Origin: Cladocopium goreaui
Taxonomy: Eukaryota; Sar; Dinophyceae; Suessiales; Symbiodiniaceae
Direction: 5' to 3'
NCBI GenBank assembly: GCA_947184155.2
Contig: CAMXCT020002669.1
Coordinates: forward strand, 443,501-507,500
Length of the DNA stretch: 64,000 nt
Positions within the stretch are counted from its first letter, which is position 1. Every line of letters begins with the position of its first letter. The notes under the pieces are model-generated. The model was not told where the DNA came from. It worked only from the letters and a program-made list of their open reading frames with translations, and ran no database searches. Both the position numbers and the translations under genes were made by a program. Below are positions 270-42,238 of the stretch, in pieces.

Positions 270-323
270 CTACTGGTTCAACATCTGGACCCCCAGCGCG
301 CGCAATGAAGTCATAGATGAAGC
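270..323 (-). CDS. Exon: FIYDFIARAGGPD segment, last one seen
   Basis: The 54-bp exon has acceptor TTGCAG|GC and GC donor GTAG|GCACGG with phase 1 on both sides. FIYDFIARAGGPDVEPV fits the family's 'LSD.F.R.GGP' block. The C-terminal part of the protein lies outside the window. Confidence 0.66.
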   Translation of the reverse strand, partial: ASSMTSLRALGVQMLNQ

Positions 324-1091
324 CTGCAACCAAAGGCACAGGTCATAGTCATGAGTGATTTTTGGTAGAGGAAACCCATCAGTGAAAAGATCAAACTATA
401 GGGGTAATAGTTTGGTGAAACAATGGATAGACATGATGAACATGGGACATTCCCTATTTGTGGGGATATCTCAACCCAACATCTTAAAATGAAATTTTAA
501 AATGTACTTGCCTAGCTGGTGTTGGAAGGAGGAACATGGACTTATATGAATCCCATGAAACTTGGGTGAAACTGCTCAGCTTGTGATTCTTCAGCTTGTC
601 TTTTCATCACCTCTCCGACCGCCAAGCAGCCAGGGTTTTCGCTGTTGCCCTCGTAGGGATGATTTGGATCTCCCCACCTGTGCCAAATTTTCCATGGAGG
701 GAAGATAGACCTAATGCTCCATGGTGATATTTTTTGGATAAATACATGGAGCATTGTATTCCTAGAGATTCAGCGCCATTGCAGTTTTTCAGGTCACAGC
801 AGTACATGTGATCTTTCACGATCTGACCAAGCAAAGAGTCTAACTTTGTCTGGTTTTAGAGATTTGAAGATCTGATTGAAAGCTAAATACCTCTGCCAAG
901 CGCAACACTACGAACCAGGGAGCCAAATTACAAAAATTAAGGTTTCCTGATGTCTATCTCCCTCCACAACATCATTGAATGCCTGCGTAAGGAAGGACCT
1001 TTCCCTTCTAGGTGTGTCGATGGCAGCGGAAACTTGTGACGCTTTGTTGTCATGTTCGTAAGTGCTACGGAAGCCACATAACACCACGTCG

Positions 1092-1148
<57 letters not shown>

Positions 1149-4100
1149 GACCATCATCATCAGCATCAGCATCAGCATCATCATCATCATCATCATCATG
1201 ACCATCATCATGACCATCATCATGACCATCATCATCATCATCATCATCATCAAAACAAATATTTTATTATATTGTATCATGTGGTATACACACATATATA
1301 TTTATTTATTCAGATAATTAAACATGAAATGAATATCTCATACTTTGGTACACCCAAGTCTACTCATTTTTGTCCTCCAATGTTTATCAAACCACTCAAG
1401 CCACATGGCGCATGATTCACGCCTCACAAGAGCCTTGACGGCCTTGGAATAGTCGGGAGACGCCAGTGGACCCGCTTGCCTCAGGGTGGGATCCATGCCT
1501 TCGGGGATCATTCCAGTCACGAGTGTTTTTCTGCCCGAGTTGCACAAAGACGCCGGCCAAACGTACGCCATCCACTCTACCCACCTAGCACATGGCAGTG
1601 GAACATCCCAACTTTTCGACGGGAACATCCCAGATTCATTCATCAAGGGGTGATTTCCGTTGCCAGCTTAAACTACGGGGAGGCTATGCAGCATTAAGGA
1701 AAACAACATGGCCGAGATTTCAAATGCTGTCCATGGATTTCTATCTTCGGGCTGGGGCGGCTCACATCGCACCGCCATGATCACCATGTTTTGTTGTCTC
1801 ATCGCTGTCGCTGAAGGCTACTGTTGTTGCAAGATATTACAAACACAATGCCCATGTTGCATGTAATGATACATCATGTCCGGAAATCCAGTTATATCCG
1901 TGTGCATGTACTTCCATTATGTATTGATACAGCATTTCCATTATCCAGATATATCCAGATTATCCATGTATTTCCACAAATCAACCACCAGAAACTGACG
2001 AAAAAAACTCTCCAAAGACGGCCATCGACATCTCCAGCCTCGATTACGCCTCTGCCAATGAAAATGTCCAATTTTTTGGGCACTAAAGTCGCAAAGCCTG
2101 CGACTTGACAACGGCAAAAAAACACCCACCGAAACCAGTAACCATCAGTAACCAGTGGAGAGATGATCCTAAAAAAACATGAAACAACAATGAAAACCAT
2201 TGCCCTCTGGTAATTTAACATAGCGAACTAGAAAAACACCATTTTTAACGGGTAAATCAGCTATAAATGGCCATTTTCAATAATTATGTTAGTTCCCAAC
2301 GCCGCCCCCAGTTAACTGGTCACGAAACCCCTTTTTTTGCATTTTTTAGGGTTTGGGGTGGGGGGGGGATGTTGACGTTCCTGTGAACTTGCTCACGTCA
2401 TGGGGGGGATGTTAACGTCCCTGTGAACTTGCTCACATCATGTATGCTTCGTGAACTTCGGGGTTGCCTGGGTTACATATAATATATATATATATACACA
2501 ATATTACACAATGAAAATCACATTTAGATATAATATATATATATATATATGTGCATGTATAATTATAAACATGTGCATAAATATACATTTATTTCACTAT
2601 TAGATACATACACATGTACATATCTTCTTGTTTATATTTATGTGCATAGAATATATTTCTCACTTACGCACACACATATATATATATATCACATGCATAT
2701 GTTATATATATAATATATATATACACACACTTATGTTTACACAACTTAAATTAACTTGTCGGGGAATGTTCCATTGCACTTTCTCAAACAATTGGCCAAA
2801 GCTTGCAACCCTCGCTGATAATGGCGCAATGTCCAAGTGGCCCAGTCCCAAAATGCAGATGTTCGGGTGGTCAATGACCTCAGCCAAATGATGAAGAGCT
2901 TGGGAATGCAGCCAACTAGATGAGTCATATATGACCATATATTATATTATATTATATTATATATTATATATATATGATATATATATTATATATATAATAT
3001 ATATTATATATATATATATATTATATGTATATATATGTGTGTGTGTCTGAAAAGTGCAGGGTACCCTAAATCCACTGGGTAATCATCGTCTTGCCTCTTT
3101 GAATGACCGCACAATGTGCGTCTTCCCCATTTCTGGACACCAAGCAGCCAGAGGTTCCTCCAAGTAGTAGACCGCAGGAGTCAGGATCACGTGCAAACCT
3201 CGCCGGGGGAGCCAAAGGAATCATAACCGGAGCTGGTGATCGCCAGGACACAAAGGTTATCACCAGCTGGTTATCAGAATGTTATCAGCTGGTTACAAGG
3301 TGGTTTTTCTTCAGCTTGTGTCACTGATCGATCCTTACATTCCGATCATTTTCTGCAGTCGTATCTGTCAAGGGGTACCCCATGTCATGGCCATGTCAGT
3401 GGAATGACTCCATTGGAATCGAGATGAATTGAGGATTCGAATTGCGACGCATTTCATGTGGTTGGTTTATAGGGATTGCCCTATATTGGATTATTTTAAT
3501 TTAATTATATAATATTATATAATCCCCAATATATTGGATAATAACAATAAATTAATATATAAATTACAATCCCCCACCTAATCATCAACCCGGGTTTTGA
3601 ACATCGTTGAAGGCCTTGCTTGATGGCCGCATTCATCTCTTTGGCTGTGCTTTTGGCATTGGTCACAAAGACCTTGTCGAAGCCCACAGTGCTGCCGCTC
3701 CTATGGCACCCGCGACCCCAACGTGGACTTTTAGGATCTGAACATATCCCCAAGAATTGGGGCTTAAAAGTGGCTTATTATTTTTTTGGACTAATTAGAT
3801 AAGATCAAATCAGTCAAAAAAAAAAAACAGGAGTTGGAATCCGCTGATTTTTGTCGATCTGGATCATCCTTTTTCAGGACAGGGATCCCTTCCAAATTCT
3901 TCAGCCCAGCATTTCATGAGCGGCCGTATCACAAGCCAACAGCAGCTGTGAGGGACGGGAGAACGTCCACTGCTAGGTCGAGTTTTGATCATAGAAACCA
4001 TCCATCCATCTCTCCATATATGGCATACTTAGCAACATTCACCCACAGAAAATGACCAAGCTAATCCCAAATGAGCCGTCAAAATTACCCCATTATCCCA

Positions 4101-7100
4101 CCTCATGAAATACTAGTTGGTTGGTAGGTTTCCCCAATATGGCTTAGTTATGGTTAGTTCATAATCCCAAATAACATCATAACTAATTGGTGGTTTCAAG
4201 TTTCAACCCCCCTGAAAAATATGAAAGTCAGATTGGATCATCATCCCAACTATTGGGGAAAATACAAAATGTTCCAAATCACCAACCAGATAGCCTAGGG
4301 TACTTTTAAATGGTTCAAATGTAGCTGGCTACCGTCCATAGCTGGAACATTCATGCCAAGTCTCTGCCAGTCGTAGCCCGGATGATTTCTCAAGACCTGG
4401 GTGAAGCCAATCCCTTCGCTGAAAGCTGATGGGAGTGAAGGTCTCATCAGCCAGGGGCTCCCTGTAAATTCCATAGATTTGTGATGACGAATTTCGAATC
4501 CATGGATCCCATCTAGGGTGAAGTGGGCCAGGTCGCTATAATTTATCATAGATTACCATGGTTAGACATGCTCTGACCATGTTTTTGTTGGTTCAATCTC
4601 TACATTCTGATAGTGATAGATGTGTGAAAACACTATACCTGAAACGCATCAGCACTGAAACAGCCTTTTTCCACAGCTTCAGTGTGCAAGCGCAGTTGCT
4701 GCTCTGAAATGTGCTGCCAAAATGCTTCTGGAATTCGAAGTTTGTACTCACCCTGGGCCAATGTGCCGAGATTGTACTAAAGAGGTCTAATCTGTGTAAT
4801 GTTGGATCCTGATTAGTGTGGGGATACTGAATTGTGTCCACAGACCTCAAAATTATTCTGAAACTTTGGAAATGATCGAGGGGTACAGTTTTGTGTCCAC
4901 AGGATTTTGGTGTAAGTTTTTTTTTTCATTTTTTTCATTTTTTTAGTTTTTAATTGTTTTTTATTTTATTTTAAAATTTTAAAATATTTTTTATTTTTAA
5001 TTATAATAATTTTTAATTTATTTTTTATTTGATTTTAAATTATTTTTTATTTTTATTTTTAATTAATTAGTTATAATAATTTTTAATTTAATTATTTTTA
5101 TTTTTAATTATATTTTTTTATTATTTTGTAAAATTGTGTCAGGATACACAATTGTGTCATTGTGTCAGGATACACAATTGTGTCTTGTTTTTTTTTGTTG
5201 TTCAAACATTTTTCATTTTTTTCATTTTTTTAAAGCTTTTTCCTTTTACTTTTTATTTTCCATCATTGAAATTTTCCAGATGCCTTCCACAGAAAATTAC
5301 ATCCAGGTACAAAATAGTGTAGTTTGTTTGTAGGGTACACTATTGTGTCCAGCTGCTTTCCTGAGGTCATGATTTTTTGATTTTTTCAATCATTTCCTTT
5401 ACCTTTTCCTTTGCTAGCTAAAGTGTTTTCCTTTCAATCAATTTCTTTCTTAGTTTCTTTCATTTGAAATTCTCAGAAATGACCAGTTTCCCAAAATATA
5501 TGATGCCTTATTAAAACCCAATTAAAAAAACATCACTCAAACAATTTTTCAAGGGGGTAGTCCATGAGCAACCCTGATACAGAATAGTGTGGTTTGTTTG
5601 GAGGGTACACTATTGTGTCCAGCTGCTTCCTGAGGTCATGATTTTTTTTGTTTTTTTCAATCATTTCCTTTACCTTTTCCTTTGCTAAAGTCTTTTTTCT
5701 TTTAATTGCTTAATTACTTTCTTGGTTTCTTTCATTTGAAATTCTCAGAAATGCCCAGTTTCCCAAAATATATGATGCCTTATTAAAACTCAATCAAAAA
5801 ACATCACTCACACAATTTTTCAAGGGGGTAGTCCATGAGCAACCCTGATACACAATAGTGTGGTTTGTTTGGAGGGTACACTATTGTGTCCAGCTGCTTC
5901 CTGAGGTTTTGTTTTTTTTCAACCATTTCCTTTTCCTTTTCCTTTGCTAAAGTTTTTTTCTTTTATGGTATTTCTATGGTATTACTATTGGATTTCTATG
6001 GAATTCCTATGAGGTCTCCATGATGTTTCTATGATATTTCTGGAGGATTTCTATGGTATTTCTGAAGGGGTGCTATGGGAGTTCTATGGTATTCTTATGG
6101 GATTTCCATTGGATTCCTATGGGATTTTTATGGTATTTCTATGATCTTTCCTATGGAATTTCTATTGGATTCCTGTGGGTTTTCCAAGGTATTTCCATGA
6201 TGTTTCTATGATCTTTCTATGGGATTTCTGTGAGATTCCTATGGGATTTCCATGTTATTTCTATGATCTTTCTATGGGATTTCTGTGAGATTCCTATGGG
6301 ATTTCCATGTTATTTCTATGATCTTTCTGTGAGATTCCTATGGGATTTCCATGTTATTTCAGTTATTTCTATGATCTTTCTATGGGATTTCTGTGAGATT
6401 CCTATGGGATTTCCATGTTATTTCTATGATCTTCCTATGGGATTTCTGTGAGATTCTTATGGGATTTCCATGTTATTTCTATGATCTTTCTATGGGATTT
6501 CTGTGAGATTCTATGGGATTTCCATGTTATTTCTATGAGAGATTCCTATGGGATTTCCATGTTATTTCTATGATCTTTCTATGGGATTTCTGTGAGATTC
6601 CTATGGGATTTCCATGTTATTTCTATGATCTTTCTATGGGATTTCTGTGAGATTCTTATGGGATTTCCATGTTATTTCTATGATCTTTCTATGGGATTTC
6701 TGTGAGATTCCTATGGGATTTCCATGTTATTTCTATGATCTTTCTATGGGATTTCTGTGAGATTCCTTATGGGATTTCCATGTTATTTCTATGATCGTTC
6801 TATGGGATTTCTGTGAGATTCCTATGGGATTTCCATGTTATTTCTATGATCTTTCTATGGGATTTCTGTGAGATTCTTATGGGATTTCCATTTTATTTCT
6901 ATGATCTTTCTATGGGATTTCTGTGAGATTCCTATGGGATTTCCATGTTATTTCTATGATCTTTCTATGGGATTTCTGTGAGATTCCTATGGGATTTCCA
7001 TGTTATTTCTATGATCTTTCCATGGGATTTCTGTGAGATTCTTATGGGATTTCCATGTTATTTCTATGATCTTTCTATGGGATTTCTGTGAGATTCCTAT

Positions 7101-10100
7101 GGGATTTCCATGTTATTTCTATGATCTTTCTATGGGATTTCTGTGAGATTCCATGGGATTTCCATGTTATTTCTATGATCTTTCTATGGGATTTCCCTAT
7201 GGGATTTCCATGTTATGATCTTTCTATGGGATTTCTGTGAGATTCTTATGGGATTTCCATGTTATTTCTATGATCTTTCTATGGGATTTCTGTGAGATTC
7301 CTATGGGATTTCCATGTTATTTCTATGATCTTTCTATGGGATTTCTGTGAGATTCCTATGGGATTTCCATGTTATTTCTATGATCTTTCTATGGGATTTC
7401 TGTGAGATTCTTATGGGATTTCCATGTTATTTCTATGATCTTTCTATGGGATTTCTGTGAGATTCCTATGGGATTTCCATGTTATTTCTATGATCTTTCT
7501 ATGGGATTTCTGTGAGATTCTTATGGGATTTCCATGTTATTTCTATGATCTTTCTATGGGATTTCTGTGAGATTCCTATGGGATTTCCATGTTATTTCTA
7601 TGATCTTTCTATGGGATTTCTGTGAGATTCCTATGGGATTTCCATGTTATTTCTATGATCTTTCTATGGGATGAGATTCCTATGGGATTTCCATGTTATT
7701 TCTATGATCTTTCTATGGGGTTTCTGTGAGATTCCTATGGGATTTCCATGTTATTTCTATGATCTTTCTATGGGATTTCCATTCCCTTTACATTTTCCTT
7801 TGCTAAAGTTTTTTTATTTTCTCAATTAATTTCTTTTATTTATAATTCTCAGAAATGCTCAATTTCCCAAAATATATGATGCCTTATTAAAACCCAATTA
7901 AAAAACATCACTCAAACAATTTTTCAAGGGGGTAGTCCATGAGCAACCCTGATACAGAATAGCGTGGTTTGTTTGAGGGTACACTATTGTGTCCAGCTGC
8001 TTCCTGAGGTTATGTTTTTTTTCAACCTTTTCCTTTTCCTTTTCCTTTGCTAAAGTTTGTTTCCTTTTACTTAGCTTCATTTTTCTTGGAATCAAAACCA
8101 AAGGCTTTCCAAAGGATTAGTTTCAGCCAAGCAAAAAAAAACATGAATGATCATGATACACAATAGTATGGTTTGTTTGAGGGTACACTATTGTGTCCAG
8201 CTGCTTCCTGAGGTGATTTTTTTTGAAACATTCCCTTTACCTTTTCCTTTGCTAAAGTTTGTTTCCTTTTACTTAGCTTCATTTTTCTTGGAATCAAAAC
8301 CAAAGGCTTTCCAAAGGATTAGTTTCAGCCAACCAAAAAAAAACATGAATGATCATGATACACAATAGTATGGTTTGTTTGGGGGTACACTATTGTGTCC
8401 AGCTGCTTCCTGAGGTGATTGTTTTTTTTTCTTTTACTTGAAAGTAAATTGAAATCAATTGCAAGTAAATTGAAATCAATTGAAAGTAACTTGAAATGAA
8501 TATGATCATGGTACACAATAGTATGGTTTGTTTGAGGGTACACTATTGTGTCCAGCTGCTTCCTGAGGTGATTTTGTTTTTTTTACATTCCCTTTACATT
8601 TTCCTTTGCTAAAGTTTGTTTCTTTTATTTTCTCAATTAGTTTCTTTTATTTAGAATTCTCAGAAATGCTGAATTTCCCAAAATATATGATGCCTTATTA
8701 AAACCCAATTAAAAAACATCACTCAAACAATTTTTCAAGGGGGTAGTCCATGAGCAACCCTGATACACAATAGTATGGTTTGTTTGGGGGTACACTATTG
8801 TGTCCAGCTGCTTCCTGGGGTGATTGTCTTTTTTCTTTTACTTGAAAGTAAATTGAAATCAATTGCAAGTAAATTGAAATCAATTGAAAGTAACTTGAAA
8901 TGAATTGAAAGTAACTTGAATTCAATTGAAAGTAAATTGAATTCAATTGAAAGTAAATTGAAATCAATTGAAAGTAAATTGAAATCAAATGAAAGTAAAT
9001 TGAAATCAATTGAAAGTAACTTCAAATCAATTGAAAGTAACTTCAAATCAATTGAAAGAAACTTGAAATCAATTCAAAATCAATTGAAAGTAAATTGAAA
9101 TCAATTCAAAATCAATTCAAATCAATTGAAAGTAAATTGAAATCAATTCAAAATAAATTCAAATCAATTGAAAGTAAATTGAAATCAATTCAAAATCAAT
9201 TCAAATCAATTGAAACTAAATTGAAATCAATTCAAAATAAATTCAAATCAATTGAAAGTAAATTGAAATCAATTGAAAGTAATTTCAAATCAATTGAAAG
9301 TAAATTGAAATCAATTCAAAATAAATTGAAATCAATTCAAAATAAATTGAAATCAATTTAAATCTATCATTTTTTTTTGATTTTACCGTATTCTGTACCC
9401 GGTAATTTGTTTTTTCCACACTATTCTGTAACGCAAATTTGTTTGGGGGGGGGGCCTCCCCACACTAATCAGGAACCAACATTACTCATGTCTACGTGAA
9501 ATGCGCCATTAACAAAGAAGCATTGGGCAAGTCTCACGCCCCAAACAAATTTCGCCTTGAAATCCCTCGCCTCATGGACGTTGCCAAAGCGAAACAATTT
9601 TGGCAACGGAGGCTTCGACCCACACGGAGGAGTTTAGATGACATCTTCGAAAGCAAAACACAGTTCAGTTCGTTGCTTAATTTGCCATCACTCGTCCCAG
9701 TTCTTTCTGGCTAAATCATCTCAAATCCACATTTTTGTTTCTATCTCCCAGGATGTCCTGTTCGAAGATGATGAAGGGCTTCTCAGCAAACACTGATGGT
9801 GGCTCCGTATACCTCACATGTCAAATGTCGAATGTCATGGACCTCACATGTCAAATGTCGAATGTCAATCAGAATTTCATGGGGATATTCTATGTGATTT
9901 CATCATCAAAATGGGGGTCTATTGGGATACAATGGGATCTTACATGATTTTACTCTGATTTTAGGGTTGCTCCCAACACCCCAGATACGTTTGGGGGGAA
10001 AATGGCCAAACAAAGGAGTAAATTACAATTTCCCCCTTATGGCTATAATTTACCTATCACGGGGATACAATGAGACTATATAAAGCAATAGGGAATTAAT

Positions 10101-13100
10101 GGGGAACTAATCCAAATGAACCCATGTGTCGCAAAATGGAGCATACCGATAGAAGATCACTAATATGCAACTCTAATAGACATACGATGAACAATCGTTG
10201 GATGGAGGGGTTCCTTGCTTGCAACTAAACTCATGTGTTCAAACCCCCTGTTGATTGATGATTGTTGGAGGTTAGACAACCCAATATATTGGGGTTTAAC
10301 ATAATCCATTAGGAGAATCCCGATTTGGTGGATCCAAAAGACTTAGACTGGGCGGACAGCGAGTATCAAATGGTGGGGCTTGGGGTATCGATCTGATTGG
10401 CAATTTCAAGCCACACCACAAACAGTAGTCAATTGGCATCGTACCAGTCCGAATACACCTCGAAACACCAACCAGCAATCTCATGGGAATCCAAAAAACA
10501 TTGACATCCCATTGACACACCGAACACACATTTAAACAATCCACGTTTCTGGTGCACATCATCCCATTTTTTGCGCCAGGCGACGTGGCTCCAGTGTGAA
10601 CACTTTGCCAGGGTAGGTGGTTGCCCTCGAAGTCGTAGCCTTGGCACCGCAGCTTTCGAGGCCAGCCGGCAAAACCAGGGCCATACCACCAGGTTTTGGG
10701 TATGTGACGATATGTGTCTAATATCATCTAATATCCAACAAATAGGAACATGGGGTAAGTGTTTCATATAAATTACAAAGATCCCCCATGTTCCAGGGAT
10801 ACCAAGTCTTGTGTGATGACCAGTGAGATCCTGGTTGGAGACTGACTTGTTTTGGGAAACCCTAAAATCAACGACAACATACTTCCATCATGTTCATTAC
10901 ACGTGTTCGTTCATGTCTAATCAGGTCTCCTGGGTAATCCTGAATGTTTTTCTGTCTCATTGGTCCTGGAGATTTTGGTCAGAAAAGGTTCAAAACCCTG
11001 GTGCCCTGCTCACCCCAAAATGGTAAATTATGTAAATTGAATAGGGTTTGATCCCCCGAGCCATGTGCAGCACACAGGCTGACTATCCATTCCCAGCCGC
11101 TGGGAGTGAAAGAAGTCTCGTCTGGCCCCACACAGCCCACAGCTGCGTAACTTCCCAAACCTGGTTTGAAAGGTTCAATGTGGTAAATCCAATAATATAT
11201 TCGTTTATCCAATAGCGAACCCAACAACAAACCGTTGTAACCATCCCCAATTGGGCTCATTATTATTGGATATACCATGATATACCCCTAATGGGCCAAC
11301 TAATGGGAATTAATGGGATATGGTATATTATTGGGTTTACCACATGGATTACGACATGGATGGACAGCACACGTCATTCGGTAGATCTTCACTGATCTTT
11401 ACCACTCCAACCCAATCAACTGCGAAAATGGAGATCACAGCACGTCCGACTCTGCAAAGTTGCAGTGTTCATGAGTCTCAGTTCCTTGCCTGCTGGATGG
11501 GGGTAGGGCTTCATCTTTGTCCCCCGCGTGTACCATTGCTGCTGCGTGCCAGTGAGAATTTCGCCCAGAATCTCGGAGTTTGCCAGCGCTCCACCAGAGG
11601 TATAGTCATCGCCTAAGTTGATAACAAATTGGTTCGTCTGGACATGTCATGTTGGGAAACACCCATTCCATCTACCGGTTAATCATCACTTTCCATCAGT
11701 TTCCTATATGTTCCTTTTCACAATGGCAATTTTGGGGGTTATAGTTATATCATGTTATATCCACCATTCTCAGACATACTCTCCGGTAATCAAACGTGGC
11801 AATGGTCAATCTCCCATCAAAAAATAGCCTATATAATGTTCTAAGGGAATTTTTCCATTCCCACCTTTGATTACCAAAGAGAACCCAACCTTCAAAAGCA
11901 AAGAGAACTGCTCCATGTTCTGAGGCTGGCACCGTCTCCACTAAGCTTCAGATCGCCATGGACTTTCACCTGAAACATGGGGCAGTTGCAAGTGAATTCA
12001 TGGCTTTGGGCTGTACTGCAGGAAGGTGGAAAGTATTGGAAAGTTGTGGTAATCACTTTAAAACCACTCATTTCGATGGTTCTATCCTGACCGATCTGGT
12101 TGGAAAAGAACTTCAGTTTTGATCGAGCTATCCACATGTTGTAAGTTTCCTCGCAACCAGTTCCAAAACAACTGCACTTCAGACAGGACAATGGTTGCAG
12201 CCAGGATAATTCCCAGGTTCGACCATCGTATCCCAAATTCAATGACGCGTAGGGAATATGTTTGGCATATTGTTGTAATTACTCAATGTTCTCACGTGTC
12301 CTCCCATAAGGTCGCCGACCCATTTATCAGCCTCTTGCAACGATCACTAGCTGCTCACAGATGCAGATCTGCAACTAAAACAACACAAAGTATTTGGCAT
12401 GCTCCCTCCTTTCAGGATTTCAACATGGTTCATACCAACTGTCAAGCTCTGAAGATTGCTTGGCAGAGTCACTCCTTGCAAGGAATGGCGAAAGCCGGAG
12501 CCAATTGTCAAACTCTGAAGACTATTTGGCAGAGTCACCCGCTCCAGGTTTTTGTTGAAATTCTGTTCAAATGTCAGACTTTGCAGACTGCTCGGTAAAG
12601 TCACTCGTTCCAGGTCTTGATTGAAAGCGCCGCCAAATGTCAAGCTTTGAAGCTTGAATGGCAAAGTCACTCGCTCTAGGCTTTGCTTAAAACCACTGCC
12701 AAATCCAGTGTTTGGTTAAAATTCTGGCCAAATGTCAATCTCTGCGGACTGCTTGGCAGAGTCACTTGTTTCATGCTTCTGTTGAAATTCTGGCCAAGTG
12801 TCAAACTCTGCAAACCCCTCGGCAGAATCACTCCTTTCAGGCTTTGGTCGGCCTAGTGTCAAACTCCGCAGATTGCTCACTCGTTCCAGGTTTCCACAAA
12901 AAGTACAGCCAAATGTCAGGCTTTGAAGATTGCATGGCAGAGTCACTCCTTCCAGGCTTTGGTTGAAATCGCTGTCAAATATCAAACTCTGCAGACTGCT
13001 TGGTAGAGTGACTCGTTCCAGGCTTTGGTTAAAATCGCTGCCAAATGTCAAGCTTTAAAGATTGCTTGGCAGAGTCACTCGTTCCAGGCTTTTGTTGCAA

Positions 13101-19100: not shown

Positions 19101-22100
19101 CGGCCGCTAAAGTGAAGGCACTGCGGGACCAGACCCAACAAATCGTCGCTGCGAGAAGAAGACCAAAATTTAACAAGCTTTGCCCATGCAAAAGCACGTG
19201 TGTAGCGAGCAGCGCTGATGTTCATAACCCAGAGTTCCAAAGCCAGGATTAGAATCAAAGGTTGTGGTCTGGCCTTCCTAGATGGGGGCGCACCGGTTTC
19301 CAACTGCGCGGACAATTGCTCAACTGTACGCAGGACTGCCGTTTGCTTCCCTAAACGAAATTCCAAGGCGATACCAGCCACTCTTTCCATGAATTGCAGC
19401 GTGGCGCAAAATGCTTCCGGAACAGTTTTGCCACACGGCTGAGCAGCAAGTTCCTCAAGAAAGTCAAGTACCATGTCACAAGTGGTCAGCCACTGCAGCT
19501 GGTAGGCTGCATGCAGCCACTTGCTATATCGGTGCCACATCTGGATATGCTTCTTTAAGGTGCTGCTGCGGGTGTTGCCAGCCAAACGCAAAGCTCGCAG
19601 CTCACCAGTCTGCCCAGTCGCTCCGGATAAAGCAGGCGCGCAAGAATCTATCAAAATAGTAGCCAACTTGCGCTGCCAACGCAGCTGAGAAGACAACTCA
19701 GCATCTGCTCGGCTGTTAGGGCAATTTTTGGGCACACGAATCCGAGCACGCTTGTGAGCACCAGAATGATGACAAAGCCACTCCAAGGAATCTACTGGCG
19801 GCACGACAGTTTCGACCATGCGCGGCTGTTTACAAACAGCAAGCCATTGCAAAGAAGGGTGCGCTGCAGCACGCCGCTTTCGACACAAGCTAGCAGCAGC
19901 AGAAGACTGAACCTGCAAAGTCTTCAAGATTGATGTGAAAAATTCAAGTTCGGCAGCATCCGATGCATAGTGGGACACGAGGGAATGTCGGTCCAAGTCA
20001 TCCAGGCAAACATTGTACAGGAACTCAGGGTCAGGCAGGCAAAATTCGCTACCCAGATCGCGCCGTAAGGCTGATGGCAACTGCATCCACTGCTCTTTGG
20101 CGGTGGTACCAATATGACCACATGATTGCTCAAAGGATGCATCCGTGACAGACATCCTGCCACACAGCAAAAAGAAAATAGAATAGAACGCGCGAAAAAC
20201 ACAAGGTTGCAGCTAAATAGACGCGGTGCACACTTGCAACCGGTCAACCATGCACATCATGTGCAACACCTAGCTGTCACCTGGAGCAATGTAGAACCAA
20301 TCAACTTAAAACCAGGACAAACAAACAAGAAGAAAAGTTTCAACTATCGCGCCAGTCCCCTTTCGATGCATCTTGGTGCACTACACGTGACTCGTTCCAG
20401 GCTTTGGTTAAAATCGCTGCCAAATGTCAAGCTTTAAAGATTGCTTGGCAGAGTCACTCGTTCCAGGCTTTTGTTGCAATTCTGTCTAAATGTCAAACTC
20501 TGCAGACTGCTTGGTAGAGTGACTCGTTCCAGGCTTTGGTAAAAACCGCTGCCAAATGTCAAGCTTTAAAGATTGCTTGGCAGAGTCACTCCTTCCAGGA
20601 TTTGGTTGAAATTGCGGCCAAATGTCAAACCTCGAAGAAGGCTTGGGAGAGTCACTCTTTCCAGGTTTTGGTTGAAATCACGACCACATGTCAAGTTTCG
20701 AAGACTACTTGGTAGGGTCACTGGTTCCAGGCTTTGGTTGAAACATTTGCCAAATGCCAAACTTTGAAGACTGCTTGGCAGAGTCACTGGTTCCAGGCTT
20801 TTGTTGAAAGAGCAGCCAAATGTCAAGGTCCGAAGACTGCTTGACAAGGTTACTTCTGCCAAGCTTGAATTGAATTTGTTTCCAAAGGGCAGGCTTTGAA
20901 GGCTTTGCGGGAGAAGGTGCAAACAATTTGTGTTTTCTTTACCTGCTATCGAAGTGATCCCTTCCAAGCCAAAATTTGCATCTGAAATTCGAAATCCCTC
21001 CTCTTGGATAGAACGCTATGCAGCATACAAATCCATCGGAATGTAAGTGCAAGACAGTGTCACAGCCTTGCCCACAATACCCTGCTGTCGCAACGTTTGA
21101 TTCAATAGCAGTTCCCAATCACCGTGGTGCGTGTGTGAGTTTTCCACCTTTCCTTGGTGGAAGTTCTTTTGACACCATTCGGCACACTTCCCAACCCATA
21201 GAACCACTGACTTTCAATGTGTATCCTTCACCATTTAGGCATAGTGAAGATCAATCACATCGGAGCCACTGGCGACACATCGCCGCAAGCAGGGTTTGTC
21301 ATCGACGGTTTCAGTGACACCGGGCTTTGCCGGCACCTGTCAAGCCCTTCTTGAGCGGCAAAGTTGAGCCAAGTCACACCGTTGTGGCATGGAGGCTCCC
21401 ACCTACCACCTCACTTGAAGACATATTGACAGGGATTTCAGCGGAAACACATCCGAGGTTGTTTTCTTCTGCAAAGCAGCAAGTCAATCGTTTCCCTGCG
21501 CAGGCACATTGAGCCATCACCAAAGGAAACAATTGACTTGCTGCTTGTTGCATTTCACAAATTTGGGTTGTGGCCGTCAAGCACCTTGGTTGTCTTGGTT
21601 CCTGCTACTTTCTGATACTTTCTGGATAGAGGTTGGTTTTCGCTCATCAGGCACGGCAAGCAGGCTGGGGTTTGTTGGAGGCCGGTCACAGGGACAGTCA
21701 CCTTCGAAGCCTGTCGGATTTCCCCAAAATGAGTCAGGCTGGATGGCGAATTACCTGCCAGGTGATGGTCTCTAGATTTTAACAATATTGTCCCGGCCTC
21801 AATCCTACTCACTCACTCGTACTCACTCCTTCTACCCAGCTACTTCTTTGCCAGCTGGTTGCCGAACGCTATCGCGAGCTACGGATGCTGTGGTGGGGCA
21901 TGCCTGGACCTGAACCCTATCGCAAGCGCAGGATGCAGTGGAGCACGCCTGAATGCCAGATAGAATGGCAGAATATATATATATATTATGTATATATATA
22001 TATATATATGCAATGTATACTTCCAGAATCTTCCAGATAGTATGTCAAAAACTATGTCAGAATAGTGTGTCAGGGTGGGGATCACTCGAAGAAAGTAATT

Positions 22101-25100
22101 AATTATATAAGTCTTTTGGAATATACACGGAATGACGTGTGTGCACATCGCCGCAGTTAAGTTGCTTGAGACCAAAAGGCAAAGCAAGAATCTTTTTATC
22201 GACATACTGTCAACCCCGGATTAATAAACTACTACCATTTTAGTATCACTATTTTTGGTGACCCACCCAAATTAATCAACCAGGGTTTATTAATCTGGGG
22301 TTGACATTATTCGTTATTCATCGTCCAGCCTGTACCATTTCATTTCACTTCATTTCACTTCATGGAAGCCAACCAGTCCAACCAGTCCGCAACCCCAGGG
22401 GACCCATCGGTTCATGGCCTTCCGCAGAGGTGCTGCTTGGGAGACGAAGAAGTTGAGGCGCTGTTGCACTTCCACGTTCTCAATGCTACGCCAGAAAGTG
22501 TTCCTTGGAAATTTCTTGGGAACATATAGGAAAGGTAATCTCAAAATGTTTAGAACAAGAAAATGGGATAGAAAATGGAACATAACTAAGATTATGATAT
22601 TTGGGTCAAATATGGGGGATTTCAGCCCCCCTCTTATGGCTATTTAATAGGGAAACTGATGATGTACTATGTATGTATGTATATATAATATAGAATAATA
22701 TAATATAATATAATATAATAAAATAATATTTAATATAATAATATATAATATAATATAATAAAATATAAGAAAAATATAATAAAATATAATAAAATATAAT
22801 ATAATATCACGGGTTCTAAAGTCAGACTACAACCGAGACCCTTCCCGGAGCACCCCACCAAGAGGCTGATGCAGGTGCACCTTTTCACTCCAAGTTGGGC
22901 TCGGTGATCTTGAGCCAGTTGGTTTGATTGGCCCTTGAGCCAATTGAATGGCTTGAGCCTTGTTGAGCCACATTGCAACAGTCGGAGGACGTCTCAACGA
23001 CTGTGAAAAACTTAAAAAGACCTTAGTGGGGGTGCAGTGGTACTCTGTTCAGGTTTCCCAACCGCACTCCCCCTTCCTGCTTGCAGGAATCCAGGTTCCC
23101 CAACACCAAAAGCAACAAGTTCAGGGGTGGCCACGTTTTCACTGGGAACTCGCCCTTCCCCCAGCCAGAAGGGCGAAGACCCTCGTGTGCCATGGTCCCA
23201 GGCTGGTGTTGGTTCCCCCTTCATCCAAGGGTCGCGTGGAGTTCCACTTCGGGTTGACTCCAAAAATTGAAAAACTACAGCCCTAACTTCGTAGGTTTTT
23301 TGAATTCCCTCTCTCACCAGCGCCGCACTCGAAGAGCGCCCAACGGTGTTCTTTGGGTCCAGCAGCTGATGAGCTTTTCCCTGTGTTGATCTTTTCCACC
23401 GGCAGGTAATGATCTTTTCCTTGGGTCTTGATGATCTTTTTCTCCAGCCACCGATGTACTTTTCCCGGCGATCTATCCTTTTTAAATTCTTCTTTTTCTT
23501 TTTCTTTTTCGGTTCCCACTTGCAATAGGATCCGGGCTTCTTTTTCCTTCTGATCGCCTTGAGTTCCCATTGGTTGCGGAGCTATCCCTTTTGATGGTTT
23601 ACCATGAAGTTGTATTTCATCTATCTTAACCACACTCCCCAAAAATTCCATCCCTCGAACTGCTACCTGATCCCTCGTTTCTGTGGGACCCGACCTTGGT
23701 ACATCTTCAACAGCTCGATGTTCTTTTCGATTGGACCTGGCAAGATCCAAGTCCCAATGTTTCTCTTGCCCATCACCCAGGATGGTCTTAGGGATGGGTT
23801 CTTCTTTTCCAGAACTGTGCAATTGGGTAACATGACCGTGGTGATCTTGTACCCGCAAAACTTTCAAAATTGGTGGATTTTCATCCCAAAAATGAACCCT
23901 TTTTGGTTTTGAGTTACCCCTTTTGGATCTATTCCCCCGTTTTAGGCTACCCCTAGGTTCTTCTTCTACAGGGTGTTCAACTTGTCCAGGAATGTTCTTC
24001 TTCTCCAAAAACGGTAAGACCGACTCCAACTGGAACCGATCCTTGACCACGGATTCAGTGACGCGATACGTATCAGCCAGTACTTGCACCAGCCTTCCAA
24101 TGGCAGTGCTCAGGGCTTCATGCCGGAATTCGGCTAGCTCTGGATATTCTTTGGCCAGACCAACCACCTTTTTCACCACTGATACGCACCGACCAGCGAT
24201 GACTCGGTAGTTGTCCCATGAGGAAGTCTCCTGGTCTGGTTCTTCCGGATGGTGTTCTTCTCCCAGAGGTTGTTCTTCGCGGCGGTTGGATCCTATTGTT
24301 GGTTCCTCATTTGGAACCCCGGAACCTTGGCGATTGACAAACCTCCAGAACCTTTCCCAGTTTGGCTTCACAGCGATGATCTTTGACAGCAAATCGGCCA
24401 CAAGTTTTTTCCCCGGAAGGTCTTCATTCCGACCATGTTCACCTTCTTCCGGTTGATGTTCTTCAAGACGTGCAATCCCCTTCGTGGATCTTGCCCTTGA
24501 AGCGTGCATTTGTTGATCTTGTTTCGGATCCACACTTGGAAATTCGGCGTCCCAGTTTTGTTGATGTTCCAGGCTGATTTTTCTGACGATGAATTCCCCC
24601 GAGTTTGGACTTCCATCTTCTTTTGCAGGTGCCTCCCCCGAGCCTTGATCGTCTTGTCCTGAAACTTTTGAAACACAAAAGGTTGAAACTTTTGAACAGA
24701 CACCGGGCTCCCCCCCAGCTGGTTCATCAGCAGGCTCCTTTTTAAATCTGGAGATTTTGGTGGAGACTTTATTCGCTTCTTCCCGCGTGAAACGTCGGTC
24801 GTTCCTCTTTTCCGTGTCCATGCGCTCGATCTCGGTGATAAGAGCCAGGGCGTGATCCCTTCGGACCACTGGACACCCAGACCGCTCCCAGCATTTGATT
24901 TTTCCCAGTCTTGGGTGTTTCACCGCACATCCTGCACGGGACCATGTGATGGTGTATCCCAATTCCGCAAGTCCTCTGAGAGGAACTATAGGTTCCACCG
25001 GACCTTCCGATAGAAGTGTTCCATTCATGGGATTTTGGTAGAGCTGCGCGGCTCCGTGAGCTAACTCCACAGTGACCTGCACTGCATTCTTGATCTCGTC

Positions 25101-28100
25101 GCTGGTACCCTGTCGTAGGGGGTGTGTTGCACCACCATCCAAGAGACCCGTGTCTTCAACTTCGGGATCCCCACCATTCCCCAACGACTTCAGCATTGGC
25201 CCTGCGATACCCTTCATGTGGTGGTTCACCTCTTGAACCGCTTGAGCGGCTCGTTCGGGTCCGGGATTGATAGAATTTTTTGGAGTGACCTTTACGGTTT
25301 TCGCTTCGCACGGTCCACATTCCGCTCTCTTACCAATGGTCTTCAGCATGGGTCCAGTAAGGCTTTTCAGGAGATGGTTCACTTCTTGAATCACTTCTTC
25401 ATTTTCCGGAGTGATTTGCGCGGCAGTTTCCGCCTCATCCAATCCACCTTCAACGCTTTCCGGTGCGCCCGCATCTCCTTCTCCTACTGACCCCCCTTTT
25501 GGTTCACGTGACTCACTTCTTTTCCCTGCAGCACACTCACGCTTGGAGTGCCCTTTTCCAGAACAGTTGAAACATCGGCCATCTTTAGAGTCCAAGACGG
25601 TGTGCACAAACCGGCATCGTTCTGCATATCGGCACCCCTTATCAGTCAACCAGTTGACACACGCCGTCTTGTGGACCACATTAGCCGCATTAATTGGCAG
25701 CTCCGGTTTCTCCCCCCTTCTTCCGGTTGAAGAGCCAGCTGCATCATCTTGTTTTCCTTTTGAACCGCCCTTTGGTGGATTTTCAGATGGATCCGGTCCA
25801 CTCATAGACTTCACCCCTACCACATTGTTGGGCTTAGTCGTTGGGCCCTGTATTGTGTTCCCCGGTTGACGGATAGCCATTTCACCAGCTTCAGCTTGAA
25901 GAAGTTCAGAAAACGTTCTGATCTCTTGCATTCCTGGCCGGAGATCGATGCCCAAATGCTGCCTCACCGAAGACAATCGGTAGGCCGCCTGAGCTCCCCC
26001 CAACCTGGCTAATGCATCACTTATTTTTGCGACCACTCCGGCCAAAACCAGAGGATCGGGCAAAACTAATTGAAGTTCTTCGGCACGAACTACCCACCTT
26101 CTCCATTTCCGGATGGAGTTGACCATCTCTGCAGCATCATTGGATGGGCCCTTCCAGTCCACCAACATTTGCAACAGAGAAGTTCTTTCCACTTGTCCTC
26201 CAGGCTGGAAGACAGTGTACAGCTTGAACATGACTTGACCCGCTGACATGTGTCTGTTCGCCACAAGGTCCTCGTAGATGTCCTTGGGGACGGCTTGAAG
26301 CAGCATACCCACCACCCGGTTCTCTGTGCGAGGCCACCCACGGGCCATATCAGGTATCACAGGCGCCATCCGGAGCCTCATAAGTGGATCCGCTTGCAAC
26401 CAGTGATGGCAAGCATGTTCCACAGCAGTCATAACTACTCCCCACCATTGTGCTGAAGTGTAGCTCACATCCCCGATCATTTGTTGGACCACTGTCAGCC
26501 AGTCTCCAAAGTCCAAAGATGTTGCATGTCTGTCAAGCTTCGGCAGATCGACTGACCTTAGTGTTTCACCTGGTACTTCGCCCCCTGCCAGAGGTCCTGC
26601 TTGGACTACAGCTTGTTGTTGTTGTTGTGGCGGTACAGCTTGTCCTGGATTTCCTTGATAACCACCTGGCTGACCTGGATTTCCCTGATGACCACCTGGC
26701 GGACCAGGTGCTTGTCCCGGATTTCCATACTGCCCCGGCGGTGGACCCCCTGGCCAACCATAACCACCCATAGGTCCGGTGTTTCCACCCGGAAATGCAA
26801 AGCCTCCATGAAGTCGATGATCTTGTCCTGCAGGTGCTCCTCCAACTTGGGCTTGAAGATTATACCATTGATTAGGTTGATCACCAATGAAAAAGTGTCT
26901 TGTGTTTTCCGTGGCTCCCATGCAAGGAGCTCCCATCGGTGGTCTTGACGCCGCTCCCTGCGGCATACCTCCCGGTGGTATTCCATTCAGCCACCCTTGA
27001 TTCATATACACATCCATCGGCCGAAGACATGGTTCGGCCCTGGGCGCAGGAGGCACATTCCACAACGGACCTCCCGCCTTCATTTGAAGATCCTGATCAT
27101 GATGATGTTGAACTCCCGGAACTGTTTGATCTTGTACAGGTTGTCCTTGGGGTGGAACACCTTGAGATGGCCCCACAGGAAAACACTGCTCGACATTCTT
27201 TTGCTCCGGAGAGGCGGTTTGATAAGACCTCCCACTTGATTGAGAGCCCTTGTGACCTCCTCCTGCTTCTTGGACCCTTTCTAGGGCACGTCTCCCTTCC
27301 CGCGTGGCTAACCAATTTTCTCGATCTTGTTGGATCTCAGTCTTGCCCCGCTGAAGGACTTCCATTACATGTTGTTTCAACTCTTCAAACTTTTCTTTCT
27401 CCCTGGCGTCAGCCTGATCAATCAGGTCTTGCGACACTGCGGGATAAGTCGGCTCCTTCACTGGAGTTTGCGGGCTGCTCATTAGAGCTTCCACTCGCTT
27501 GGCAGCACTCCAGGGATTCATTTCTTCTACAGCCATAACCCCAGTTACCATCCCAGGATCCACAACTGCAGTTTCCCACTGAGGTGCCAGTCCCGTAGGT
27601 GGCACACCAGCACACATTGATTGCTGGGACATCCCAGCTGCTTGCAAACCCTGTGCCTCACCAGTTGCGGTATACACCACATATGCTCCCGCTGGCTGGC
27701 AGGCCACAGGTGGACTTGTTGGCGCCGCTGGCACCACTTGTTTGACACGTGCATCTTCAGGAGATTCAACAGGTGAACGTCCCGGTCGCTCCAAAAGAGC
27801 AATTGTTTCTACAACAGCAGCCGCACCTCCACCCACTTCAGTTGAGCTTTGGTGTTTTCCACCCTGTCTTTCTTCTCGATTACCCACAACAGGTGGTTCA
27901 CGAGATCTCTCAGACATCCGGGCAACTCCTGGTGTCTGCGCGATTGGTACTCCCGAAAGAGTTAGACTATTCACCCCTGGGGTCAAACCAGACAACAAAT
28001 CACCATTCCCTTTTCCTCGTACCACTACAAGTCTAGGAGGTTCTTCAGGCGGCAAGGACACTGGTCTTGCGACTTCTTCCGCAACAGCCGGATTCTGGGC

Positions 28101-31100
28101 AATTTGTTCGCCCGCTCCAGCTCGGACCGCCACAACCTGCGCTAGGGCTCCACTTCCCCCAGCACCGGTCAGTGCCATTCCCCTTTCTCCAACTCCCTTT
28201 CCCGTCAGCGATCTTCGGGTCGAGTCTGATGATCTTGTCCCTGTTTTTTCCCCATGTTCTTGTCCAGGTGTGTCCATCTCCTCCAGAAGCCGATCCAGCA
28301 TTTGGTCTGCCGTTTCCTCGCATTCTTCTTTTCCATGTCCATGGGACCCATGTTGTTCTTCTTCAGCATGCGCAGCCGCCTGAACTTGATGTTCTTGTCG
28401 ACGACGCTGAGTGAAGTCGCTGCTCGACATGGCTTCAGGGCAGCGTTGGGGTTGGGCTCATAACCCACGGGTTCTAAAGTCAGACTACAACCGAGACCCT
28501 TCCCGGAGCACCCCACCAAGAGGCTGATGCAGGTGCACCTTTTCACTCCAAGTTGGGCTCGGTGATCTTGAGCCAGTTGGTTTGATTGGCCCTTGAGCCA
28601 ATTGAATGGCTTGAGCCTTGAGCCACATTGCAACAGTCGGAGGACGTCTCAACGACTGTGAAAAACTTAAAAAGACCTTAGTGGGGGTGCAGTGGTACTC
28701 TGTTCAGGTTTCCCAACCGCAAATATAATATAATATAATATAATCTAATATAATAATATATATATATATATTCCATTGGAATTTGGGGGACACTATTTTC
28801 CTTCAGTAGACCTTTTTTTTTTGGAGTGCCACACTGAGCTGTTGGAATCCGAATTGTATCATAAGTCCAAAATCAACGGATTTTGAAGTGGCTTCCAAGT
28901 GACCTTTTTTGTTTAATTTGTTTGCAGTTTTAGATCATTGAATCATCCTCACTATCTCACTGGACAAGAGAATGCACTGAGATAATGATAGATAATGAGT
29001 CAAATGTTGTGCATCAGAAATCGCTCCCTTCATCCACGGGGGTCCCTTCAACTCGCGTCTCACATCCACATCAAATTTATGAAGTGGCTATTCAGGCTAG
29101 TTACATCAGCAATTGTTAGACGATTCAACAATGTATGCCAGCAACCTGGTGCATGGCATAGGATCCAGTGGCTTTCTTGCGCTCACCCCAAGAACGGGTC
29201 GGCACAACACCGAACACGACCATGGCAAGTTGGATATATTTGGATACCTATCTGGTAATCCCAGCATGGCAATGGGAAATCTCCATTGGGGTTCAATCTA
29301 AAAATGCTGAATCACGCATGATCACCCTAACGGGCCGGGTCCATTTCAGCACCGAAAGATCTGATTTCACAAGCTTTCAAAGCCATCAACTCGTGTGCTG
29401 CCAGGTAGCGTGTTGGGCAAATTGCCTGACAGGTGGAGTCAGGTCAGGTGAACTCAGGTGAGGGCCCCAAATCTCCCAGTAACCAGCCATGATTGGGGTC
29501 ATTTTATATTTATATTCCAAAAATGCCTTGCTTTGAGTCCCAAAACTTTCATCCAATCTAGGCAAAGCATAAGAACTTCCAAACAAGATAAGATCAAACT
29601 CGACATGCAATTCGCCACCGAGCTGGTGATCCAATCTCAACTTTTGGTGCAGTGAACTCACACTTCGCAATTTCTGCGCTCAACTCACGAGTTTTCATCA
29701 CCTTTAGCTGCAAATGGTTATGGGTCAAAAGCCTGGTACAAGTACCGGTGCCCTAAAAGAGCTGGATGATGGAAAATGATGGATATTCCCCCAGTCAATA
29801 TCTTCGAATGTGTCCCCACTGGATGCCTTCTGTTGGAGATTCCCTTAAAACATCTATGATCATGTCATGACCCCCAAATCTGTCGATGTTCATCGTCGCG
29901 CCTGGTTGTCGTCCCACCTCGAGGCCAATGCCCCGCACGCCCGGTGACACCACGGTCTCCGTGGGAGCCGCACCAAGGCCGAGCACTTGGAAGTAGTAAG
30001 GCAGCTGAATGTCCACCTGAAATCCGGGATAACCATGGGTCAACCAGGGGTCAAAAAAATGGGTGAATCATGGATAATTATGGCGGATAGTGATGGGTAT
30101 ATAACATTATATAACCATGATGGGGAAATGGCATCTTAATGGGGAAGTCTTTCTCTACAAACTCCCCAAGTAGTGGATTTTCGATTGGGAACATCAACAA
30201 TCATATACAGCAAATCCATGCAAATCCAGATTTTTCGGGAGGAAACCTGATTTGTGGAGTGGTGAGAAACCATTGAACAAAAAATGTCATTTAATGGATA
30301 TATAATGGGATATATGATAACAACAATGGGGATATTGATGGGTATATAATCATGATGGGACATGGAATGTCACTGGGGATATAAGAATAATAGATAATAA
30401 TAGGATATATGATATTGGAAGGGGATACTTGAAGGAATTGGAACGAATTGGGATATTATTTTCTCTATGAGTTCCCTAAATAGTGTATTTTCCGTTGGGA
30501 ACATCAGCAATTGTCTTCAGCAAATTTACGTTTTTATTTGGGAGGAAACTTGATTGCTGGAGTGTTGTGAAACCATTGAAAAACAAAAAAATCATTTAGT
30601 GGGGATATAATGGGATATATGCTATTTAACGGGAATTCATTATACATAATGGTATATGTGATTGAAAAAACATTGAAAACCCTTACCCTCTGGTGATCAA
30701 ACATGGCTAGCTGGGAAATACTCTATAAATGGATGCTTTAGTGGTAACATCATTTATAAATTGGAGATCTTTAATGGCCACGTTTGATTTACCAGAGGGT
30801 ACTTATTGCTGGTGAGATGCATGAACACCTGTGAAAGGCCAATCTTTATCAGTATTATTTACATATATTTACTGGATAAATACATGGTATGTTTACAGCA
30901 CAAAAAGCAACCATGGTCGAACAGGTGAAGGTTTCACATATTTCATGTTTTATGATGTCAAATATCACAAATAATATGGTGATGTAGTGGGAATGTGTCA
31001 TCATATCAGTTTTCATGGGGTAAAACCATGGTACGCTTAAAACACACAAACATGCGTGGTTGATTTATTTATGGGGGTTCCCATAATATGTTTTGAGTCC

Positions 31101-34100
31101 AAATAAGCCCCGCGCAAAGCCAGCCCCATGGCTGGTACGGTATACGGATACAGCCATAGCTAGTTCGCTCCGGATAGCTTGAGTTAAATGCAACGATTGT
31201 TTAAAAAAACAATGGTGTCTCCATTTACGATATTATCTTGTGAAAATCGTCTGGTAATTGCAATAAACAAAATATGGGTACACGAATACATGTTAATTAA
31301 ATGAACAGCATGTTCTCCACTGGTGACCCCATCATCTGCTAGTCGAAGGCAGGTAGTTCCTTTAGTAAAAGGTTTCCAGGAGCGGCCACAAAGCGAACAG
31401 CCCCCAAAAATATGGTGCTCTTATGTTAAACTTGCAGATCATGAGAAAACCGCTTATGGTACCACCAACTCTGTGAAAAGCCGCTTATGGTACCACCAAC
31501 TCTGTGAAAAGAAAAGCTGGGCAACCAGGGAAGAGGATTTCCGGCTTCTCTTGAGACTGCTTTGACAGTTTTCCAGGTTTGTTAAAAGATAAGGCAAAAA
31601 CATGCAAAAACAAGAATTATTCTACCATGGCTAACCCACTGACATCCACTATGCAAACTCGTGGCAAAACCGTTCGCAGCCACCAATCTCAAAAGAGAAT
31701 GTTGTTCTTTATTCATGATTCTTCAGGCCCTCCAGATTGGCTTAGCAATCGTCATCATCACACCAAAATTCATGGCTCAACATCAGCCCCTTGAAATCCA
31801 TGACGCCATCATTGGTGGCCTGGTGGTTCCCAGGCATCAGAAACACGGCCGTCCGGTGATTCCCGAACTGGCCATAGTCGTCCCAGCCAATCTCAGTAGC
31901 ACAGCAAACTGCCATTGTTTTGAAGGGGGGTTGGGTATGCTGCAAGGCCATGCTTGATCTCTGTGACTTAAGCAAACACTTAGCATAACTATAATTCAGC
32001 AGTATTTTTCAGTAATATTTGAGAACCTTTACCCTAAACATGAGGCAAATGCTGGTTCCGTTACATGAAGCATCATGGAGCGTATGGGATACAAGTACCA
32101 CATGCAAGTTTGGCTGCATCTTAAGGACTCTTAAGGTGGAATGAGTGCAGATCGACATCAAGAAAGCTCAAGCAATTCAGGATGGTCAAATCAAGCTGAA
32201 AATCCTCCATCAATAATTTCATACTATTGTGAACCACGGTCCCTTGAAATTTCCACACTGTTGTGTACCCTAAATTTGTTTAGGGGGGGAGGGCGGGGGG
32301 GTCACCCCTACACTAATCAGTAGCCAACATTAATTGACTTTGATTATCTTACCAGTACTATCCGGCTTATCTTGTCCCCGTCTTGGTCCAAAGGCCACTT
32401 GGTGTCTGAAAATGGGATTTACATGGAATGCAGGGAAAATGATGAAACATTATATATTGTTAACCAGTGAATGTAGGGTATCCAATTTTCACACAAACCC
32501 AAATGCGCAACTTGTTGAACCAAGAAGCTTGTGTCTCGTACAACTGATTGAGTTTTGCCTCAACAGCCGGAGCTGAGTGAAGACAGAGAGACTTCATCGG
32601 CGCGATTGTTGCAGCGTTCTTTTTTAATGCAATCCTCTCCCAAACATGTTTCATGTCTGGGTTTGGTATTTTCTCGTTCATGATTTTATATGATTTTGCT
32701 GAACGTGTTGGCAAACCCCAACAGTTATGGACAATGAGACTTGTTTCATTCCTGTGTGACTTTAGACAGGATCAAGGCCTACGGCCCTGCAGCCAGGTGT
32801 CCTGCAGCTCCGAACTCGCTGCTCCCGCTGGAACAATCTTGGTGGCGTTCAATTTTTTCAGGTGCCACCCAAGGAAGATCAACCAAGATTTACATAGATT
32901 TATCAAGTACCAAACCAAACATCAATAAACACACTGCCAATAATTCATGGGCTTCAGCCATAGTACTCCTTTCTTCAATCATGGGGACAATAATGGGATC
33001 ATGTCATCTTCATCGCCAGCAAGAAGCAATCACATTGGGCCCAAAGTCCACGGAACTCGCTGTTCGTGCCTTTGGATGCCCCTTTGGCCTTCGAAAAACG
33101 TCAACATGTCATCATCCCAGGAAGGATGGAAAACATGAACACATTTGGAGGTTTCCATCAATGGGGTTACCCCCAAATAGCTGTTTTTTTTATGGAAAAT
33201 CCATCTATAAATGGATGATGACTGGGGGGACCCCCATTTATGGAAACCTCCATGTCTGAAGCTGCCACTCAGTCTTTGTGTGGCATGGATCAACATCAAG
33301 ATCGTCCCACTGTTCTGAAGATCACTGACGGAGAAATCTGACCATACCCTCTGACCGAGAAATTCGAGAACTGCCATGGCCACCATGAAAAAGCATAGAA
33401 GTCCAAAACTCTCAAGAAAAACCATGAATACTTCCCCAATTTCCCGGATCTTTACACATCTGTACAATTCTTTACACATGGGGGTATCTTAAAATGGGGC
33501 TCTCTGAAAATGGGGGATCCCCAAGTCACCCACAACTCCCAAGGAAGCGCCACGTCGATGCATCCAAGGATCTCATGCACTAATTTCTGCTCCTCGCTCG
33601 CTCTTCTCCTCAGCCGGGATGAAACTGTGAAAAGGATTGAGAAATATGAACTATTGAAAGCATGGATTACAGAGCATATTATACACACCAATACACACCA
33701 ATCATATATGATGCATTATGATGCAATGATGCGATTGCACTGCCATACAATTGTAAATGGCATGAACTTGGGGGCTTTTGGCCTCAACTTCAAGGGTCCT
33801 CGGCTGTGCTGACAAGCTTTGGGCCAAGAGTCGTGCGCTGGAGCAAGCCAGTTGCATCATCAGCATCTGGCACAGCACAACCTGCATCACCTGAGCAGAC
33901 TCGCGCTGAGACAGCTGCCTTGAACAACAAAAGGGGGATCTTAAGCCATGCCTTAAAAGGTATACTGCAGACAAGCTCATGGTGAGTCAAATGAATCCAA
34001 GGGGTGTCCAAATGTCCTAAGGCACCAATGTAGTCGTGTTTTCTGAGGGTCAGACTTGCGCAGGAGTCACTAGTACTAGTCACGGATTGGGACGCTAAAA

Positions 34101-42235: not shown

Positions 42236-42238
42236 GGT

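Follow-up and report, generated by a model that had tools for sequence, protein, structure and literature searches.

The minus strand of the window analysed here, a 64-kb stretch of Cladocopium goreaui DNA (C2669:443501-507500, C2669 being contig CAMXCT020002669.1; G+C about 45%), carries a string of short coding segments, which raises the question of whether they form one gene, what that gene would encode and how it came to be so finely divided. Positions are given in window coordinates, with negative numbers to the left of the window. The host is a dinoflagellate, since the genome (1.166 Gb, 6,202 contigs) contains 172 exact copies of a 21-nt pattern that we take to be the dinoflagellate spliced leader and none of the reversed control; no spliced leader occurs in the 64-kb window. 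The explanation that, taken as a whole, is considered quite probable is that the segments form a nuclear gene of the dinoflagellate, read from the minus strand, which encodes a glycoside hydrolase 55 (GH55) enzyme of the SacteLam55A type. To yield the product, splicing would join at least 15 exons, each about 6 to 32 codons long, using GC, GT and GA donors and, for the most part, AG/G acceptors (a slash marks the splice site). Two introns of the gene would have been swollen by retroelements, and the genome would contain at least five diverged loci of this kind, the window gene included, each of which would have gained most of its introns independently after separation.

The motifs listed in the initial annotation were all located on the minus strand and in the order proposed there. 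Because the string of annotated exons consists of hand-picked pieces, tests independent of that choice were made by segment scanning and by spliced alignment. The motif list was divided into 13 segments (LGLG and FATLVP were separated and the KQ exon was added), and three further segments left of the window brought the total to 16. Each segment was scanned over 74 kb, comprising the window and 10 kb leftward, on both strands (~148,000 placements), a hit within 12 nt of the predicted location being accepted. A mixed profile of 11 bacterial proteins and four paralogs, from which the window gene was excluded, placed 14 of the 16 segments first, ILGL second and ARAGGPD third, subject to a slight indirect leak in that the profile used to refine the paralog models had contained the window gene's row. 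The leak-free bacterial profile placed 12 of the 16 first (EKPF ranked 14, the KQ exon 2, ILGL 2 and ARAGGPD 12).

The spliced profile aligner was built on 11 bacterial cores, which remained after a 78% identity filter from 88 bacterial cores, 85 of them past the start filter. From window 34119 to -1999 the true minus strand scored 177.9 bits. Scores stayed between 26.9 and 42.8 bits in 33 controls, made up of 20 dinucleotide shuffles, 10 profiles with permuted columns, the plus strand, and the sequence and the profile each in reverse. Single motifs are short and were chosen by eye, but these control scores, the segment ranks and three exons that lie outside the annotated stretch, in order just beyond the window and all at rank 1, refute the reading of a chance string picked from 64 kb by a family-aware annotator, to which we assign a negligible probability. 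The initial observation is confirmed in that its segments are colinear on the minus strand, and the picture of one gene in small exons is borne out with at least 15 exons.

Following the direction of transcription, and with all exons on the minus strand, the first plausible exon is a weak candidate of about five codons, DFGPN (DLGPN in the family), at 33032-33048. Profile columns 1-5 have no better match anywhere in the 74 kb, and the aligner picks it at low intron penalty only; a right end at 34119, as first annotated, is unsupported. The exons GQFGNHRTAVFLMPGNH... (31805-31873; donor GGC/GTCATG, 5' start not fixed) and VDIQLPYYFQVLGLGAAPTETVVSPG (29939-30016; acceptor TTTCAG/GTG, donor candidates at 29939, 29932 or 29895) both rank first. 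The exon NTFWRSIENVEVQQRLNFFVSQAAPLRK (22419-22503; donor AAG/GCCATG) ranks first for both of its segments, scores 50-56 bits and carries the equivalents of Phe152 and Gln174. A weak candidate exon, VKVHGDLKLSGD (11933-11969), scores 6-9 bits, is positioned in order and has fitting splice sites. It is followed by GDDYTSGGALANSEILGEILTGTQQQWYTRGT (11516-11612; rank 1), which includes the Ser198 equivalent, and by VFAEKPFIIF (9764-9792), which ranks first with the paralogs and 14 with bacteria alone.

Beyond the linker, the exon ...VGFDKVFVTNAKSTAKEMNAAIKQ (3615-3697; donor AAG/GCCTTC, 5' start not fixed) ranks first with the paralogs and second with bacteria alone, and is succeeded by GLHVILTPAVYYLEEPL (3149-3198; rank 1, donor CTG/GCTGCT), VIDHPNICILGL (2842-2878; rank 2, donor TGG/GCCACT) and GFATLVPKK... 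(2039-2097; rank 1, 3' end not fixed). The split codons in KQ-G-LHVILTP (3615/3198) and GL-G-FATLVP (2842/2097) both rejoin as Gly in phase 1, as had been claimed. The last two exons in the window are VGRVDGVRLAGVFVQLG (1534-1584; rank 1, 3' end not fixed) and YDFIARAGGPD (283-315; rank 3 with the paralogs and 12 with bacteria alone). The aligner skips the latter in favour of a single exon at 1584-1434 or 1584-1440; the annotated segment was preferred and accepted because the paralogs read ARVGGPD there (SDVFARVGGPD and SDIFARVGGPD), neither of its junctions being fixed. The alignment of the window gene contains a four-residue gap before FFVSQAAP. Stop-to-stop frames holding the exons reach 111 codons, exceeding the ceiling of about 50 codons given in the initial annotation.

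Rather than stopping at 270, as first proposed, the gene runs on for at least 1,254 bases past the left edge of the window, to at least -1253 (C2669:442247). Three exons there rank first: VDTMLEV..WLWKADHCVH (C2669:443402-443319), VHMYGLMAEH..WNGEH (C2669:442695-442629) and GKTYFFQSEFKY.. (C2669:442320-442247). A weaker exon, LVVNADN (C2669:443055-442997), was placed by the aligner. The gene model leaves out most of the linker between 11516 and 3697, both gene ends and the last ~90 family columns. Low-scoring exons that the aligner placed in the linker and far to the left (beyond -2,300) are not claimed, and no confident 3' end emerged past -1253 within the 30 kb analysed, where the aligner paths score too low.

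The expectation of a single, mainly bacterial beta-helix family agrees with the database searches, which point to GH55 of the SacteLam55A type, best known from bacteria. The search of the exon string, proposed as a check, matched bacterial plasmid proteins with E values down to 2e-22 and a solved Streptomyces enzyme at 2e-19. A selection of 295 residues judged reliable, used also for the second tree, matched PDB 4PEW with an E value of 2e-45 over both beta-helix domains (stretches 47-180, 255-342 and 374-461). 4PEW is SacteLam55A, a GH55 exo-beta-1,3-glucosidase of Streptomyces sp. SirexAA-E, with its active-site residues listed (PMC10637969). These residues were mapped through the alignment (an offset of +44 from the chain numbering, by manual count), and 10 of the 11 named residues are retained, spread over two exons inside the window and three beyond its left edge. 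The general acid Glu502 and its helper Tyr505 are present in FFQSEFKY, left of the window. The subsite -1 residues Trp446, Asp449 and His481 and the aromatic block of Phe152, Trp444 and Trp446 are found in NTWLWKADH, LMAEH and TFWRS. Ser198, Gln174 and Glu480 of the water-activating relay are likewise retained, and the Thr149 position falls at an unfixed junction; Leu occupies this position in paralogs C666 and C5844 as well as the bacterial proteins L017 and L018, and Thr in paralog C113. The catalytic centre is carried mostly by the three exons left of the window.

The product is most likely a two-domain beta-helix enzyme that releases terminal glucose units from beta-1,3-glucans, laminarin among them; both the activity and its exo mode are predictions for the window gene product. 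Unlike SacteLam55A, which it resembles in both domains and in 10 of the 11 named active-site residues, the gene is divided into at least 15 exons, its Thr149 position is unfixed and its C-terminal stretch was not found. The core domain is also common to plasmid-borne relatives in Streptomyces, Deinococcus, Eleftheria, Nonomuraea and other bacteria, which differ in having a single uninterrupted frame and, in some cases, an added discoidin or ricin-type domain. Three of the bacterial relatives (L017, L128 and L130) are annotated as adenylyl cyclase, probably a name passed on in error. Pfam gave no match to the exon string or to paralog C666 and no core domain in two bacterial relatives, and NCBIfam gave one match to the exon string, below the cut-off; no Pfam or NCBIfam model names the GH55 core in the sequences searched.

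The size of the gene is explained by retroelements and two satellite arrays in its introns. An LTR-type element on the minus strand (22808-28620), outside the product, occupies the intron 29939-22503 and consists of two identical 155-nt direct repeats around a 1,724-codon open frame, in which the domain search found no reverse transcriptase domain. Since the repeats are identical, a recent arrival is suggested. The next intron (down to 11969) holds a reverse-transcriptase element, also on the minus strand and outside the product (12339-20953; presumably DIRS-like), with RVT_1 at 4.6e-07 in the frame 14037-16352. Its flanks are formed by two blocks of FNIP-type 66-nt repeats (12339-13310 and 20258-20953), and FNIP (PF05725) was matched at 7.4e-24 in a frame at 12350-12715. 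The satellite arrays, both within an intron of the gene, comprise ~33 copies of 55-nt units (5964-7779) and ~13 copies of 42-nt units (8842-9364).

At least four further diverged loci, similarly shattered, occur in the genome: C666, C113, C132 and C5844; locus counts are lower bounds. C5985 was counted with C132 as one locus because the peptides are identical in 9 of the 11 C5985 exons. Spliced alignment with the bacterial profile yielded 338.8 bits for C666, 204.6 for C113 and 219.8 for C132, and the mixed profile yielded 289.6 bits for C5844 against 22.9 on the opposite strand. C666 is compact and the most complete paralog, matching 4PEW with an E value of 2.8e-103. Compared over 236 to 295 residues, the window gene shows identities of 41-47% with the four paralogs and 37-45% with the 11 bacterial proteins. 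Neither a second close copy nor an intronless copy of the window gene is present among the 16 matches listed in the genome search.

A decaying pseudogene, in which the exons survive in order, splicing or expression has been lost and retroelements fill the introns freely, would account for the elements in two introns, for the linker and gene ends without fixed exons, for the weak scores of several exons and for the long branch of the window gene (1.59; C113 is the other long branch in the tree). However, the ten active-site residues are retained across five exons, the placed exons are open with fitting splice sites, and the paralogs are alike in architecture, so that decay appears improbable. 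The survival of these residues is the best sign of a working gene; splicing at the exact junctions described is a prediction.

The introns of the gene family were compared in two sets. The first consists of 63 introns flanked on either side by an exon that scores at least 15 bits; the donors are GC in 28, GT in 22 and GA in 13, and the acceptor is AG/G in 58 of the 63, a share that is inflated because the scoring favours GT and AG/G; the GC and GA donors reach their share in spite of it. Such donors make up 25-74% in Symbiodiniaceae according to a review (PMC11453091). TGGC occupies intron positions 7-10 in 11 of the 63 introns, compared with 0.63% of background G(T/C/A) sites (C113, C666 and C132; loci L106-L121). 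Positions 5 to 10 tend to C-N-T-G-G-C, which may be an extended donor signal or the trace of one intron family.

After introns with a flanking exon below 12 bits or outside columns 33-456 had been dropped, the five loci retained 68 introns, which occupy 59 positions when those lying within 3 nt are merged. Exact sharing is limited to four positions (6 pairs, where 1.4 are expected at random), and sharing within 3 nt is no more than random (10 pairs, 9.7 expected); these counts are soft, as wrong exons or misaligned columns would hide true sharing. C666 (19 introns) and C5844 (16), two of the best models, share a single intron. Because 68 introns fall at 59 positions with four shared exactly, the gain of most introns probably postdates the separation of the copies, and the original suggestion of later intron gain stands in part, most introns seeming younger than the copy split.

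Direct repeats of at least 6 nt across the junctions occur in 5 of the 63 introns (C5844 columns 275, 290 and 351, C666 column 427 and C132 column 94) against 1.3 expected, a count reached in 0.7% of 2,000 shuffled pairings. Such repeats are the trace that mobile intron insertion would leave, and freedom in junction placement could add to them. Introner-recut dinoflagellate genes, as described in two sources (PMC11453091 and PMC9860276), resemble the GH55 loci in their many unshared introns and excess of junction direct repeats, but differ in that GH55 introns under 2.5 kb show almost no mutual likeness: a comparison of these introns gave only 2 short hits and identified no introner family. 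Gain through introner-like elements, which we infer, would therefore need old or varied elements.

In the tree, the five dinoflagellate copies group apart from 14 bacterial proteins with support of 93/91, the sampling consisting of bacteria and the five copies; the very long branch of Bandiella was left out of this second tree. A tree from earlier models had grouped the five copies against 15 bacteria (96/94). With bacteria as the sole outside sample, this topology fits a single acquisition from a bacterial source followed by duplication. The fuller account, put forward tentatively, is that an intronless bacterial-type glucanase gene entered a dinoflagellate ancestor and was copied via processed cDNA, each copy then being colonised by about twenty introns at different places, with the four shared positions older than the copying. 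A relative on a plasmid of Candidatus Bandiella woodruffii, a protist endosymbiont (Euplotes woodruffi ciliate culture; L131:2318-4252), is distant, at 25.5% identity and an E value of 1e-15 to the C5844 product.

GH55 of the SacteLam55A type might instead be an old eukaryotic gene, lost elsewhere, with an intron-poor ancestor of no bacterial origin in this lineage and with intron differences that arose by loss and sliding instead of gain. GH55 also occurs in fungi (PMC10637969), a table in the Goniomonas genome paper has a GH55 row with counts of 2 (1) and 0, the column meaning not given in the part available (PMC6260743), and a few introns are common to two or three copies. Against this, all search hits are of bacterial type, in collections without other eukaryotes, and loss alone would need an ancestor with ~59 introns in the compared stretch; an old eukaryotic origin is accordingly judged rather unlikely. 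Acquisition from bacteria is the origin tentatively proposed here.

The window gene is a further GH55 member, in a dinoflagellate genome, of an enzyme type best known from bacteria; no report of a SacteLam55A-type GH55 enzyme in dinoflagellates was found in the open-licence literature. Beta-1,3-glucan is a common storage glucan in diatoms and brown algae, and the enzyme, if active, would let dinoflagellates digest it. Paralogs with many unshared introns in the same genome make intron gain countable and datable gene by gene, and if the gene did enter without introns, the family would amount to parallel records of how introns were gained inside a single genome. A whole-genome search with a bacterial relative returned only six matches, the best being the QQQWYTR exon of the window gene (11516-11612; E 0.0145). 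Finely cut genes are thus nearly invisible to six-frame searches, and for this reason their number in dinoflagellates may be underestimated.

Three features lie in the remainder of the window. Close to the finely cut gene is an uninterrupted 198-codon frame for an FKBP-type prolyl isomerase (39647-40243, minus strand; PF00254, 5.2e-27), perhaps a retroposed copy. A satellite array at 41671-42236 has a 171-nt unit in 3.3 copies at 97%. Farther right, one 2,965-codon open frame (53094-61991, minus strand), presumably Copia-like, contains stretches that by eye are zinc-knuckle, integrase-like and reverse-transcriptase-like.
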